From assembly GCA_029252555.1 (NCBI GenBank), contig JAQXBF010000026.1, forward strand, positions 1 through 64,000: a DNA stretch of 64,000 bases, written 5' to 3'. Of this stretch, positions 54,743-60,003 are shown piece by piece (the stretch's first letter is position 1; each line of letters begins with the position of its first letter). The position numbers were made by a program, and so were the translations under genes. The DNA comes from Porticoccaceae bacterium. Lineage in GTDB: Bacteria; Pseudomonadota; Gammaproteobacteria; Pseudomonadales; Porticoccaceae. The notes below the pieces were generated by a model, which saw only the letters and a list, made by a program, of their open reading frames with translations, did no database searches and was not told the origin of the DNA.

Positions 54743-55433
54743 GACTATCTTTTGGGTTCCTGAGGTTCAGAATCTGGGCGAACTGCTGGATAGCGGGAAA
54801 CCCAAAATAGGGCCTGGATGCCTGCTGGCTATCCGGCGTTTCTATCGCCAGTAGGTGCCCTATGCCATAGACTTCTGCCGAGCGCAGCACTGGCTCTGAA
54901 TCGTCGATAAACAATGTTCTTGCCGGGTCAAAGGGCATATTTTGTTGCAGTTGCTGCCAGAAATTTTGGTCTTCTTTGGGATAGCCGTAATCATGGGAGG
55001 AAATTACTTTATCTAGCAGAGGCTGGATGTCGGTAACCGAAAACTTAATATCCAGACTATCGCGATGGGCGTTGGTGATAAGCACTCGATCTTTGCCTCG
55101 ATCGCCCAGTGCTTGCAAGAAGTCGATGGTTTGCGGACGCTCACCAATCAAATGCTGAATTTCGCGCTTAAGCCCGATAATATCCATATCCAGCTCCCGG
55201 GACCAAAATTCGGTGCAATACCAGTCCAGGGTACCTTGCTTGTCGGCCAGGCGTTGCTTTATATCTGGAATCGCCTGCTCTATGGGCAGGCCATATTTCT
55301 GGCCGTAGCGCTTGGGCAGATGCTGCAACCAAAAGAAACTATCAAAGTGCAGGTCGAGCAAGGTGCCGTCCATATCCAAAAGGACAGTATCAACCTGGTC
55401 CCAGTTAAACCTGCTTGCCCAGTCAAGTATCAA
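54729..55433 (-). CDS. yrfG: HAD-family nucleotidase YrfG (GMP/IMP nucleotidase-like)
   Basis: 234 residues. DMDGTLLDLHFDSFFWLQHLP provides the nucleophile Asp of HAD motif I; motif II lies in VLITNAHRDSLDIK and the metal-binding motif is FIDDSEPVLRSAE. E. coli YrfG dephosphorylates GMP and IMP. It overlaps both hslR and mrcA by a few bases, so the mrcA-yrfG-hslR-hslO set is tightly packed. Confidence 0.92.
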   Translation of the reverse strand: MILDWASRFNWDQVDTVLLDMDGTLLDLHFDSFFWLQHLPKRYGQKYGLPIEQAIPDIKQRLADKQGTLDWYCTEFWSRELDMDIIGLKREIQHLIGERPQTIDFLQALGDRGKDRVLITNAHRDSLDIKFSVTDIQPLLDKVISSHDYGYPKEDQNFWQQLQQNMPFDPARTLFIDDSEPVLRSAEVYGIGHLLAIETPDSQQASRPYFGFPAIQQFAQILNLRNPKDSHGKI

Positions 55434-57916
55434 AAAAGATCCTCCGGTAATGGGCTGTCCTGTGGCACTAGAGTGCCATTGTCTGGAAGTTCGGCCACAT
55501 TACTCTGCTTGAAAAATTCGAATATCCCCTCTTGGTGGGGGGCGACACGCTCGCCAGTCACAGCATCAATTTTCACCATCACAATGCCATTGGGCTGGGG
55601 CTGAGTTATCTCTGTTTTGCCGTTTAGAGCGCCTCGCATAAAGTCGATCCAGATTGGTAGGGCAGCGGAGCCACCGTATTCGTTGCGGCCTAGGAGGCTA
55701 TTGTCGTCGAAGCCAACCCAGGTAGTGGTAACCAAATGGGGTGAATAGCCAGAGAACCAAGCGTCTCTAGGGCCATTGGTAGTGCCTGTTTTGCCTGCCA
55801 AGTCGGAGCGCTCTAGGACCTTGGCTTTAACCCCGGTGCCCCGCAAAATAACATCTTTCAGCATAGAGTCGATTAAGAAGGCGCTCTGTTCATCAATTAC
55901 CCGTTTGGCCGGCACAGTCTCAATGATATCGGTATTTTGTAGTGCTTGAGCAATGGCCTCCCAACTGTCTTGGTCGGTATCTGCCAAAGATTCTTGAGCG
56001 AGATTGGTAAGTAGCTCCTCGAGCTGAAGATCGACACTAAGTTCCGAGCTGGCCGCGGACTCTGCACTGCTATTACAGGGGTCACAAACCGTCTCTGGGC
56101 TGGCTTGGAAAATAACATGACCATCTCGGTCGATAACTTTGTCGAGAATATAGGGTTGTACCTGATAGCCGCCATTGGCAAATACCGCATAGCCGCCGGC
56201 AATTTGCAGAGGTGTTAGGGCATGGCTGCCCAAAGCCAGTGATAGATCCAGGGGCATCTCGCTAGTATCAAAACCAAAGGCCTGCAGCCCTTCTAGGGTG
56301 CGGTCAATACCCATGCGCCGCAATAGGCGAATGGAGACCAGATTGCGAGATCGATACAGGGCCTCTCGGAGACGAGTGGGGCCATAAAATTTTCCCCCAT
56401 CGTTCTCTGGCCGCCAGAGATCTTCGAGTTTGCTATCGTTGAACACCACCGGTGCATCGTTAATCAGAGATGCTGGAGTAAAGCCATTGCGCAGCGCGGT
56501 GGTGTAAATGAAGGGCTTGAAGTTAGAGCCTGGCTGACGGGTGGCCTGAGTGACTCGATTAAAGCGACTCTGGCGGTAATCAAAGCCACCTACTAAGGCT
56601 CGAATACCACCGTTTTCTGGTGCCAGAGCAACCATAGCAGCTTGGGCTATTGGCAGTTGCCCAAGAGTTACCCTGCTATTTTCATGGCGCTGGATGCGGA
56701 TTAAATCCCCGGGGCTAAACAGGTCCAGTGCTGAAGTAATAGGTGCGGTGCGAGCATTAACGGTTTTGTAGGTTCTGAGCTCCTCTAGGCCATCCATCCA
56801 ATTCAATGGCAGATTCAGGCCGTCTCTAGTCAGCAGTATAAGATGGTCATCTAGAACCTCCGTGACTATAGCGGGCTCAAGACCACCGTAGACCTTTGCT
56901 CGCAGAGCTTCAGGCCAGTCCTCTTCCAGCAGAGCCGACTGCTCGACACCCCTGTAACCATGACGATTATCATAGGCGATGATACCCGCTTGCAGAGCTT
57001 CTACTGCATGGCTTTGCATATTAGAGTCGAGAGTAGTGATAGCGGTATAGCCCTCGGTGTAGGCTTGCAGGCCAAATTTGTCGATCACCTGCTGGCGTAC
57101 CATCTCGGCTGCATAGGCTGCATCAAGTTCTGAAATTGAGCCATGATAAGAGGCATTGTCTTCCTCGTTGATGGCTTGCTGATACTGCACCTGATCTATA
57201 TTGCCCAGAGATAGCATGCGCCCAAGAATCCAGTCGCGCCGCACCATGGCTCTTTCGGTATTGGCTAGGGGGTTGTATCTGGAGGGGGCTTTGGGTAAGC
57301 CTGCTATGGTAGCTATCTCTGCCAGGCTGAGCTGATCCAGAGTTTTGCCATAGTAGACCTGCGCTGCAGCGCCCACACCATAGGCGCGGTTACCCATATA
57401 AATTTTGTTGGTGTATAGAGACAGAATCTCCTCTTTGCTCAGCTCTTCTTCGATTCTGAAGGACAGCAGTATTTCATTGAATTTACGGGTGAATTCCTGG
57501 CGCTTACTGAGGAAGAAGTTCCGCGCAACCTGCATGGTAATAGTGCTACCACCGCTGCGAATAGAGCCCGTGGTAATCAACTCAACCGCTGCCCGAGCCA
57601 AACCAGAGATCACAATGCCTTTGTGCTCGAAGAAACTATCATCTTCTGCCGCCAAGAATGCATCGATCATGGGTTGGGGTATTTCGTCAAAGCTAACGGG
57701 TGAACGCTTCTTTTCACCGAATTCTGCAATGACTTTCAAATCTTGTGAATGAATGCGCAGTGGAATTTGTAACTCGATTTCCTTTAGTTCCTCGACTGAT
57801 GGTAATTTTGGGCTAAGGTACAGATACAAACAGGAGACCACCAGGAGAAATCCACCGGTCCCTAGTATGGCCAGAATCGACAGATTCTTAAGTAATTTAC
57901 GTTTTTTTATGGACAC
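55430..57916 (-). CDS. mrcA: Penicillin-binding protein 1A (bifunctional)
   Basis: 828 residues from GTG at 57916, which starts the basic stretch before the membrane anchor (KNLSILAILGTGGFLLVVSCLYLYL). A -10 hexamer just upstream argues against an earlier start. Glycosyltransferase motif: AAEDDSFFEHKGIVISG. Transpeptidase motifs: RQPGSNFKPFIYT (catalytic Ser), SRN in ALYRSRNLVSIR, and LAGKTGTTNGPRDAWF. It polymerises and cross-links peptidoglycan. Divergent orientation to the pilM position is the Pseudomonas arrangement. Confidence 0.96.
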   Translation of the reverse strand: MSIKKRKLLKNLSILAILGTGGFLLVVSCLYLYLSPKLPSVEELKEIELQIPLRIHSQDLKVIAEFGEKKRSPVSFDEIPQPMIDAFLAAEDDSFFEHKGIVISGLARAAVELITTGSIRSGGSTITMQVARNFFLSKRQEFTRKFNEILLSFRIEEELSKEEILSLYTNKIYMGNRAYGVGAAAQVYYGKTLDQLSLAEIATIAGLPKAPSRYNPLANTERAMVRRDWILGRMLSLGNIDQVQYQQAINEEDNASYHGSISELDAAYAAEMVRQQVIDKFGLQAYTEGYTAITTLDSNMQSHAVEALQAGIIAYDNRHGYRGVEQSALLEEDWPEALRAKVYGGLEPAIVTEVLDDHLILLTRDGLNLPLNWMDGLEELRTYKTVNARTAPITSALDLFSPGDLIRIQRHENSRVTLGQLPIAQAAMVALAPENGGIRALVGGFDYRQSRFNRVTQATRQPGSNFKPFIYTTALRNGFTPASLINDAPVVFNDSKLEDLWRPENDGGKFYGPTRLREALYRSRNLVSIRLLRRMGIDRTLEGLQAFGFDTSEMPLDLSLALGSHALTPLQIAGGYAVFANGGYQVQPYILDKVIDRDGHVIFQASPETVCDPCNSSAESAASSELSVDLQLEELLTNLAQESLADTDQDSWEAIAQALQNTDIIETVPAKRVIDEQSAFLIDSMLKDVILRGTGVKAKVLERSDLAGKTGTTNGPRDAWFSGYSPHLVTTTWVGFDDNSLLGRNEYGGSAALPIWIDFMRGALNGKTEITQPQPNGIVMVKIDAVTGERVAPHQEGIFEFFKQSNVAELPDNGTLVPQDSPLPEDLF

Positions 57917-57946
57917 TATTTTCAGGCACCAGAAAAATGAGCGTCT

Positions 57947-57952
57947 ATTATA
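57947..57952 (-). promoter_or_regulatory. -10 element for mrcA
   Basis: TATAAT on the minus strand, 30 bases before the GTG start; no good -35 is seen at 17 bases (TGCACT). Confidence 0.35.
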
Positions 57953-58054
57953 AGGTGTAGAGAATGTGAAGTGCATCATTTGCACAGTTAGCAAACATCG
58001 TTAATGTCATTTCTCGCCTAGGACGGCCCAATTTACAAGGATGATAGCTAAGTA

Positions 58055-58111
58055 ATGAGCTTTTTAGACTTCTTATCAAAACCAACCAAACCGCTTGTGG
58101 GGCTCGATTGA
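58055..58111 (+). pseudogene. pilM: Remnant 5' end of pilM
   Basis: ATG (58055) opens 18 codons, MSFLDFLSKPTKPLVGLD, then TGA. The pattern (short hydrophobic N-terminus, Lys/Pro, LVGLD) matches the start of PilM proteins, which continue DISSTSVKLLEL; here the gene stops exactly after the Asp. It has a plausible ribosome site (AAGGA) and lies where pilM always sits, divergent to mrcA. The sequence then continues, in another frame, as the pilQ 3' end. The rest of pilM has been deleted. Confidence 0.8.
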
Positions 58112-58337
58112 TATTACTCGCATAGAAACCCAGGCTTTGATTGGAGATGGGCAGACTGCAGTCTTGGGAGGTATTTTTCAGACTGAGGAAGTTAATGGTA
58201 CAGAGAAGGTACCTATGCTGGGAGATATACCATTTTTGGGTAAGCTTTTCAGAAATGACCTGCGTAATACCGAAAAACGTGAAATAATCATATTTATAAT
58301 ACGTAAAATAATTGATGATAATCTTCTGGATCGATGA
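58107..58337 (+). pseudogene. pilQ: Remnant 3' end of pilQ (type IV pilus secretin)
   Basis: About 76 codons remain: IDITRIETQALIGDGQTAVL, then GGIF, KVPMLGDIPFLGKLF and REIIIFIIRKI. This is the C-terminal secretin core of PilQ (VPxLGDIPxLGxLF). The normal protein has several hundred more residues. The frame is uninterrupted to the TGA, which overlaps the aroK ATG (ATGA), the normal pilQ-aroK coupling. No valid start codon or ribosome site belongs to it. The junction with the pilM remnant is at about 58104-58110. Confidence 0.9.
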
Positions 58338-58852
58338 GCGAACAGCATATTTTTCTAGTCGGCCCCATGGGGGCCGGCAAATCTACAATTGGTAGACACC
58401 TTGCCGCTTTCTTAAATCGTCCTTTTTTTGATATAGACAATGAAATTGAAGCCCGCACTGGCGCTGATATTCAATGGATATTTGATATGGAAGGCGAAGA
58501 GGGATTCCGCGCGCGGGAAACCAAAGCGCTAATGCAGCTCATCGAAAATGACTCGTCTTCCGTGATAGCCACTGGGGGCGGGATTATTCTGCGGCCAGAA
58601 AATCGCGCGGCGTTAAGAGAAAATGGCCAGGTGATCTACCTTTCGGCGACCAAAGAGCAACTCTACGAAAGAACACGCAAAGACAAAAACAGGCCATTGC
58701 TGCAGGTTGATAATCGGCGGGACGTTATAGATCAGTTGGTTGAAAAGCGTGACCCGCTCTATCGAGATATTGCCGACCTAGTTTTCCCCTCCGGTTCTGT
58801 TGTGCCGGGGAAATTGGCAAAAAGTCTCGCCGAAGCACTTGCGGCGCTTTGA
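58334..58852 (+). CDS. aroK: Shikimate kinase
   Basis: 172 residues. P-loop GPMGAGKSTIGR, the shikimate-binding FFDIDNEIEARTGADIQWIF, and GGGIILRPENRAALRENG are intact. It phosphorylates shikimate in aromatic amino acid synthesis. Translation was originally coupled to pilQ; after the deletion it is probably driven by the old pilM promoter region. Confidence 0.96.
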   Translation: MSEQHIFLVGPMGAGKSTIGRHLAAFLNRPFFDIDNEIEARTGADIQWIFDMEGEEGFRARETKALMQLIENDSSSVIATGGGIILRPENRAALRENGQVIYLSATKEQLYERTRKDKNRPLLQVDNRRDVIDQLVEKRDPLYRDIADLVFPSGSVVPGKLAKSLAEALAAL

Positions 58853-58911: not shown

Positions 58912-60003
58912 ATGAACCCATCAGCTACTACAGCTAGTGCAATCTCCCTTAACGTCGATCTTGGCGATAGAAGCTATCCTATCCATATTGGCTCAGGGCA
59001 AATTTCTGCGGCGAATATTGCCCAGTATATTCAGGGGAAAAAGGCGCTTATTGTTACCAACACCAGTATCGCGCCTCTCTATCTTCGAGCATTGACTGAT
59101 CAGTTGCAGGGCGTGCAAATTGACAAAGTTATTCTTGAAGACGGTGAGCAGTACAAGAATCTTGAAAACCTCAATAAGATATTTACTGCAATGATTGAAG
59201 GTCAACATGACCGCAAGACCACTCTGATTGCTTTGGGTGGGGGGGTTGTAGGCGATATGACCGGTTTTGCCGCGGCCTCATATCAGCGCGGTGTGCCTTT
59301 TATTCAGGTGCCTACCACATTGCTGGCTCAGGTAGATTCCTCTGTGGGAGGCAAAACTGCCGTCAATCACAGCCTGGGCAAAAATATGATAGGGGCATTT
59401 TATCAGCCTCAAGCGGTGATTATAGACACCGATACATTGTCGACATTGCCTGATCGCGAGTTTCGCGCCGGTCTGGCTGAAGTGATTAAGTATGGTTTGA
59501 TTGCTGATGCTGAATTTTTTGCCTGGTTAGAGCAGAACGCTCAGGCTTTGCTTGATCGTGATAGCAAGGCGCTGGCTTATGCCATTCAGCGATCCTGTAT
59601 CAATAAAGCCGAGGTTGTGAGTGCCGATGAGACTGAGCAGGGCATTAGGGCTATTCTCAATCTGGGCCACACCTTTGGTCATGCTATTGAAACATTCCAG
59701 CAATACCGTGGCTGGCTTCATGGCGAGGCTGTTGCCGTGGGCATGGTAATGGCTGCTCAGCTATCTGCATTGGCTGGCAATATGGCTGCTGAGGATGTTG
59801 AGCGGACCAAGAATCTGATAGCGCTCTGTGGTCTCCCAACCCAGTTCCCAGAGAATATGAGTCGCGATGATTTTATGGCCCTGATGGTTCGCGATAAAAA
59901 GGTTCTCGACGGGCAATTGCGATTGGTTTTGCTTAAAGGCATTGGTTTTGCGACGGTAAGTGCTGATTTTGAGTTGAACTGGTTAGAGCAGGTTCTTACC
60001 TAG
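58912..60003 (+). CDS. aroB: 3-dehydroquinate synthase
   Basis: 363 residues. NAD-binding [41 protein letters not shown], and the metal-binding HTFGHAIET and HGEAVAVGM motifs are all present. It closes the ring in the second step of the shikimate pathway. The aroK-aroB pair is conserved; here gltB follows directly with no damX-like gene between. Confidence 0.97.

Follow-up and report, generated by a model that had tools for sequence, protein, structure and literature searches.

When an operon is deleted from a chromosome, which part of it is left behind, and what keeps that part in place? The question is raised by a window of 64,000 nucleotides from a Porticoccaceae bacterium (GenBank assembly GCA_029252555.1, contig JAQXBF010000026.1, positions 1 to 64,000 of the forward strand), a marine organism of the SAR92 type whose genome, G000 below, comprises 2.30 Mb in 40 contigs with an estimated completeness of 97.5%. 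The pilMNOPQ-aroK-aroB locus of type IVa piliated gammaproteobacteria has the same neighbours and gene order as the relatives compared here, whereas in the window all that remains of the operon between mrcA and aroK (58,055–58,337) is an 18-codon piece of pilM fused out of frame to the final 77 codons of pilQ. This scar is very probably the relic of a ∼4.8 kb deletion that formed part of the dismantling of the type IVa pilus, and the end of pilQ may have been kept for the sake of a cis-acting element.

Neither the scar nor the element was found described in the literature on SAR92 and Porticoccaceae pili, on pil gene loss or on aroKB promoters, covered mostly as titles and abstracts and with few subscription journals. 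Titles and abstracts likewise yielded nothing on an aroK-hofQ operon or on a promoter internal to pilMNOPQ, and pili went unmentioned in those parts of the SAR92/HTCC2207 genome literature that were available. One paper considered as an example of pilMNOPQ loss was set aside, since its accessible portion reports pilMNOPQ as present in both groups (PMC11774029).

The scar between mrcA and aroK

On its left the interval is bounded by the whole of mrcA, encoding penicillin-binding protein 1A (55,430–57,994, minus strand; Pfam Transgly, Transpeptidase and PCB_OB), for which the listed start is TTG and the real start may lie further inside. On its right stand aroK, encoding shikimate kinase (58,334–58,852, plus strand; Pfam SKI, E 4e-53), and aroB, encoding 3-dehydroquinate synthase (58,912–60,003, plus strand; Pfam DHQ_synthase and DHQS_C). 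An earlier note on this DNA, made from its letters alone, had described the flanks in just this way, with mrcA divergent and aroK-aroB downstream, and mrcA is the divergent neighbour of pilM in relatives too.

Alignment with the relatives G019, G013, G011, and G022 shows that the old pilM leader is retained (57,995–58,054, plus strand), including a ribosome-binding-like AAGGATGATAG. It is followed on the same strand by the pilM relic (58,055–58,108), identified by tblastn and translation, which begins with an ATG at 58,055, runs for 18 codons and meets an out-of-frame TGA at 58,109–58,111; PilM residues 1–18 of G019 match it with 94% identity (tblastn). The pilQ relic (58,107–58,337, plus strand; tblastn, Pfam, and a codon table of 32 tails) consists of 77 codons and a stop and represents the C-terminal end of the secretin. 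Its frame can be read from 58,107 (ATT GAT ATT ACT CGC) to the stop at 58,335–58,337, it matches PilQ residues 692–768 of G019 with 92% identity (tblastn), and it covers positions 100–168 of the 169 in the Pfam Secretin profile (E 6e-22). Two independent protein matches, in the correct order and at the ancestral place, exclude chance. The pilQ tail is one codon longer than the ∼76 given in the earlier note, whose out-of-frame junction is borne out. Its aroK ATG over the pilQ stop can likewise be seen in the sequence, with the ATG at 58,334–58,336 overlapping the TGA of the relic.

The joint lies at 58,106–58,109 (plus strand), where comparison with five operon-bearing relatives leaves about two bases (AT) possibly common to both sides, in keeping with the two to three bases of microhomology proposed earlier; in these relatives, GAT or GAC stands at the eighteenth codon of pilM, with TCx-AT(A/T/C)-GAT on the pilQ side. 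The lost DNA amounts to ∼4.8 kb when distances are measured against G019 and G013, and the deletion would have removed everything from pilM codon 19 to about pilQ codon 691.

Nearest relatives and direction of change

The locus was placed on a tree of MrcA, AroK, and AroB with 51 rows, comprising 47 loci of the genus and four outgroup genomes, from which G012 (49 residues of AroK), G006 (an aroK hit that is a distant paralogue), and contigs taken as duplicates were left out. The rows nearest to G000 are G019 and G013, both of which carry all five pil genes at this site. As these closest relatives have the operon in this position, its absence from G000 is the derived state; the deletion would have arisen in the G000 lineage after its split from them, and the loss of inner-membrane and secretin genes that the earlier note read from the window is upheld. 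The same locus is also found in HTCC2207, MOLA455, SAR92 clade bacterium H231, H921, and many Porticoccaceae MAGs.

Two further proposals about the event hold in part. That the loss is recent is plausible, because the frame of the pilQ tail is still open, but the tail already lacks the Thr-Pro of the secretin C-terminal motif, which is retained in 31 of the 32 tails compared and is replaced by Ile-Arg in G000. That aroKB was re-wired to the old pilM promoter stands only partly, as the pilQ stop already overlaps the aroK start in 24 of the 26 operon loci (scripted placement, with the G027 start uncertain); aroK was thus the operon's downstream neighbour before the event, and what the deletion did was to shorten the operon.

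In two of the loci classed as operon-bearing, G022 (L035) and G027 (L048), pilQ is recognizable over most of its length, yet the open frame before aroK spans only 289 and 84 codons, respectively. These may be fresh pseudogenes or sequencing errors.

The rest of the type IVa pilus

A look through the rest of the genome for other core pilus genes, suggested in the earlier note, found them gone or broken in G000. The evidence for absence comes partly from this one draft genome, with its estimated completeness of 97.5%. In a profile search of the genome no full PilM was recovered, the sole PilM_2 match being FtsA. No G000 match above the cut-off was obtained for PilB or for PilT/PilU, which exceed it in 35 and 47 of 56 genomes, respectively, and no match was obtained for PilY1, which 30 of the 56 possess. 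G019 matches each of these families. The only full secretin match in G000 is GspD, and its two T2SSF domains include none from PilC, both being GspF, which is the best match though its score falls below its NCBIfam cut-off. These belong to a retained type II secretion cluster, with GspD and GspF accompanied by GspE, GspG, and GspK on contig C15; a third T2SSE match in G000 is weak and was counted only.

Three further deletion scars are present in G000, each with flanks collinear to G019. Between nadC and the retained pilD, pilA-pilB-pilC is reduced to the last ∼48 codons of pilC, which are frameshifted (L107 1,880–2,200, on contig C19). At a second locus (L124, C2:36,000–48,000), with a joint near C2:40,692–40,739, ∼93 codons of pilT align while the remainder of the gene and pilU are gone. 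The third is the scar of a minor pilin-pilY1 cluster (L151 7,557–7,909, on contig C15), where ∼350 nt stand in place of ∼7.2 kb in G019 (L123 5,871–13,075). The last gene of this G019 cluster matches ComP_DUS, a family of DNA uptake sequence receptors, so that DNA uptake may have been lost as well.

Other pilus genes remain in place but are broken. A tfpB-like pilus ATPase gene (L101 11,423–13,176, on contig C39), lying between an argA-like kinase/acetyltransferase gene and glnE, carries a frameshift near codons 142–144 and a TAG near codon 384, whereas this second PilB-like ATPase gene is whole in G019 (L104 8,465–10,231; NCBIfam NF053534). The pilF gene (L147 837–1,478, on contig C1) has a stop after codon 213, where G019 and G013 have Trp. 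By contrast, pilD is retained (Peptidase_A24 and A24_N_bact at L107 2,232–3,092), as is expected if the prepilin peptidase also serves the type II system. A working type IVa pilus gene set (PilB, PilC, PilM, PilQ, and pilins) is not encoded in G000. From its gene content, the cell probably makes no type IV pilus, whose loss was presumably tolerated or favoured, and the pilMNOPQ deletion would be one part of the dismantling of the whole apparatus.

These data also bear on whether the operon is really present and was collapsed in assembly, a reading favoured by the draft state of the genome (40 contigs). Against it, the joint is internal to a contig of 140 kb (C17), PilM, PilB, PilC, PilT/U, and PilY1 are all absent genome-wide, and at three further loci pil clusters have dropped out cleanly from between collinear flanks. 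A misjoin, moreover, would not strip a tail of residues that 31 of 32 tails retain. Given these additional scars and the altered conserved residues, we reject collapse as the main explanation and consider it extremely improbable.

Some relatives show irregularities at other pil genes. In G013, where pilMNOPQ is present, the pilB match contains TGA and TAA (C17:25,193–26,866) and the pilU match a TAA (C21:17,432–18,457); judged from these reading frames, decay may start at pil genes other than pilMNOPQ. G020 (L058; completeness 90%) has pilMNOPQ, with PilB and PilT lacking matches above the cut-off, a pattern that reflects either an incomplete assembly or a different order of loss.

Recurrent loss across the genus

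All five pil genes are recognizable at 26 of the 47 genus loci, which does not imply that they are intact (the pilQ frames of G022 and G027 are short); six loci hold partial relics, ten hold none of the genes, and five are cut by contig ends. With a two-state label and the five cut rows left out, at least six state changes are needed on the tree, a quick one with SH-aLRT support only, on which change counts alone cannot separate gain from loss. All four outgroups carry the operon. Neither this recurrence across the genus nor the further scars in G000 were anticipated in the earlier note.

Five relics, in G000, G004, G029, G028, and G024, keep the end of pilQ, and they do so with five different junctions. 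In G000, codons 1–18 of pilM are joined to pilQ codon 692, and in G004 the deletion runs from just 5′ of the pilM start to pilQ codon 664. In G029 (L036, L067), PilM 1–165 is fused in frame to PilQ 725–768, giving a frame of ∼205 codons that ends on the aroK start. G028, which is sister to the operon-bearing G003 (SH-aLRT 98), has a pilM piece and pilQ from codon 576, apparently the result of two steps, and G024 retains a frameshifted pilQ from about codon 715. The pilQ tails of these relics range from ∼44 to 193 codons in length. The sixth partial locus, L092, has pilM, decayed pilN and pilO, and ∼0.7 kb of other sequence before aroK; pilP and pilQ were not found at this locus.

The in-frame fusion of G029, together with the open frame of 80 codons at 58,095–58,337 in the window, might suggest that a functional small gene exists here, either this frame or a pilM′-pilQ′ product. 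The relics vary among lineages in both length and frame, the G024 tail is frameshifted, the conserved Thr-Pro is lost in G000, and the listed frame opens only with TTG, all of which make such a gene highly unlikely. The frame at 58,095–58,337 is better labelled a pilQ pseudogene than a small secretin.

Completeness-corrected genome sizes (rounded) have medians of 2.53 Mb for operon-bearing (n = 18), 2.47 Mb for partial (n = 5), and 1.52 Mb for total-loss genomes (n = 5). Total loss is thus seen in small genomes, whereas partial loss extends to larger ones; streamlining as the sole driver was rejected, since partial-relic genomes are as large as operon genomes and only the total-loss ones are small. 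Frequent loss of competence has been discussed, in the portion of the source available, for Legionella pneumophila and Acinetobacter baumannii (PMC11472951). As with the loss of competence or pili within species or genera, loss here is repeated and scattered; it differs from the Legionella and Acinetobacter cases in that whole gene blocks are removed at more than one locus, the genus is marine, and the survivors have a fixed 3′ remainder in common.

A candidate control element at the end of pilQ

In operon-bearing relatives, the last 30 codons of pilQ show a ratio of synonymous mismatch to expectation of 0.56, the lowest of 1,482 sliding 30-codon windows over eight genes (19 genomes, 10 for aroB; window mean 1.01, sd 0.078), while blocks at the pilQ and mrcA starts that are also low (0.44–0.55) are poorly filled and fall below the size filter. 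A general gene-end effect is not supported as the cause: the corresponding blocks give 1.01 for pilM, 0.90 for pilN, 1.00 for pilO, 0.80 for pilP, 0.95 for aroK, 1.08 for aroB, and 1.00 for mrcA, a range of 0.80–1.08 against 0.56 for pilQ.

Within this stretch, a TGCG and the 12-mer AAACGTGAAATA are invariant at fixed spacing in all 37 tail-bearing genomes, a set of operon-bearing, cut and relic loci whose rows were anchored on the 12-mer and which includes none without it. The conserved element comprises the TGCG block and a TGAAATACT block, and its invariance holds though the −35-like half can open with either a Leu or a Met codon (CTG or ATG). In 32 of 32 tails no codons other than AAA CGT GAA ATA are used at their positions, and all five relics with pilQ sequence keep the TGCG and 12-mer motif. 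In the window, a pattern search places the 12-mer at 58,275–58,286, and the element as a whole spans 58,260–58,288 (plus strand): CTGCGT at 58,260–58,265, a 17-nt interval, TGA at 58,280–58,282, and directly thereafter AATAAT at 58,283–58,288. This −10-like hexamer is AATACT in the other tails and AATAAT in G000 alone. The 12-mer was rejected as a genome-wide regulatory motif: it matches 46 times across 43 of the 50 genomes of the genus, against 18 times for the reversed control pattern, and 39 of its matches, in 39 genomes, are placed at the aroK site.

A sigma70 extended −10 promoter has TG-n directly before the −10 hexamer. The order nTGCGn, 17 nt, TGA, AATACT would fit such a promoter for aroKB and resembles it in having TG-n before AATACT (AATAAT in G000), a hexamer that 17 nt separate from a weak −35-like nTGCGn; the −35-like half matches the consensus at three of six positions by our count, and the TG and 17-nt spacing are conserved in 37 of 37. 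It departs from the classical form in lying inside coding sequence and in its weak −35 half. The invariance and synonymous constraint hint at a possible promoter-like function for this candidate. A consensus promoter scan did not report the site at 58,260–58,288. The same scan reported TTTATA-18-GATAAT at 58,293–58,322, found at the same place in L062, with counts near the shuffled mean.

The end of pilQ might instead have been kept only because deletions cannot enter aroK, with joints otherwise random and no element present. The tail lengths of ∼44 to 193 codons favour this reading, as does the standing of aroK in a strain that we take to be Acinetobacter baylyi. In the accessible portion of the paper on that strain, which has the same operon order, pilQ lies upstream of aroK in one operon and aroK is called essential (PMC9596432). 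The constraint of 0.56 against a mean of 1.01 is found in operon-bearing relatives, however, and is independent of deletions. Between the frameshifted G024 tail and G003, differences fall at 3 of 79 positions near aroK and at 18 of 85 upstream (p 0.0008), while 27–43% of the 4-fold sites of mrcA, aroK, and aroB differ, but the operon-bearing pair G007 and G003 likewise differs less near aroK (8/79 against 18/84, p 0.056). For G028 and G003 the figures are 2/79 and 5/84 (p 0.44). Evidence against an element also comes from G000 itself, whose tail carries changes at 8 of 70 sites common to four relatives in the last 76 nt and at 5 of 121 upstream (p 0.07) and differs from G019 at 11 of these 76 positions, where G019 and G013 differ at five. 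On balance, we regard random joints without an element as unlikely, though credible.

A closer contender is that the end of pilQ acts in aroK translation, as a (re-)initiation region, through low structure or through pausing at ATA codons, and not as a promoter. The overlap of stop and start, several nearly invariant ATA Ile codons and the silence of the promoter scan on this site all accord with it, and constraint reaching into the first ∼20 codons of aroK (0.85 and 0.72) keeps a translation element in play. Against it, the conserved core lies 46–74 nt before the ATG, far upstream of a ribosome-binding site, and is invariant although anywhere from 30 to 51 nt separate the −10 from the assigned start of aroK; the pilM and pilO ends, which also adjoin the next gene, are unconstrained. 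RNA structure as the cause of conservation was rejected, as the RNAalifold consensus of 23 sequences is unpaired at every column up to the aroK ATG, and a search of 57,800–58,600 with Rfam returned nothing. Strict translational coupling from the pilM start is not supported either, since the G000 junction is out of frame, the start of pilM is missing in G004, and an in-frame junction occurs in G029 alone. Overall, a role in translation is a serious possibility that falls somewhat short of probable. The selection for aroK translation suggested by the earlier note can be refined: nucleotide-level constraint acts on the final ∼90 nt of pilQ, and either a promoter or a translation element could account for it.

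To return to the cis-acting element, the end of pilQ would survive since it adjoins aroK and carries this element, most likely a sigma70-type extended −10 promoter and otherwise a translation element, which aroKB would need unless it is replaced. The motif is absent near aroK in the ten total-loss loci and in L092, so it can be replaced. We tentatively propose, with less than even confidence, that an aroKB promoter inside the last 30 codons of pilQ limits deletions on their 3′ side and that relics retain this end for as long as no substitute promoter has arisen; a substitute must then have evolved in the total-loss lineages. The C to A change in the −10-like hexamer of G000, its sole core change and seen in one of 37 genomes, may represent a step towards consensus after read-through from the pil genes was cut short.

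Implications for the genus

As an event, the scar is ordinary gene loss. What sets it apart is the complete dismantling of a pilus by several separate deletions in one genome, its repetition across the genus, and the candidate control-like element conserved in the surviving fragment. Within the genus, one operon has been deleted on separate occasions, which gives a natural series that runs from five genes by way of ∼44–193 codons of pilQ to nothing, together with close relatives that still bear the operon. With this series one can ask why pili are shed by ocean bacteria, whether for reasons of cost, phage entry, attachment or DNA uptake, and what deletions may not touch. It also suggests a general route to control elements that lie concealed where a dispensable gene ends, namely a survey of what survives in independent relics.
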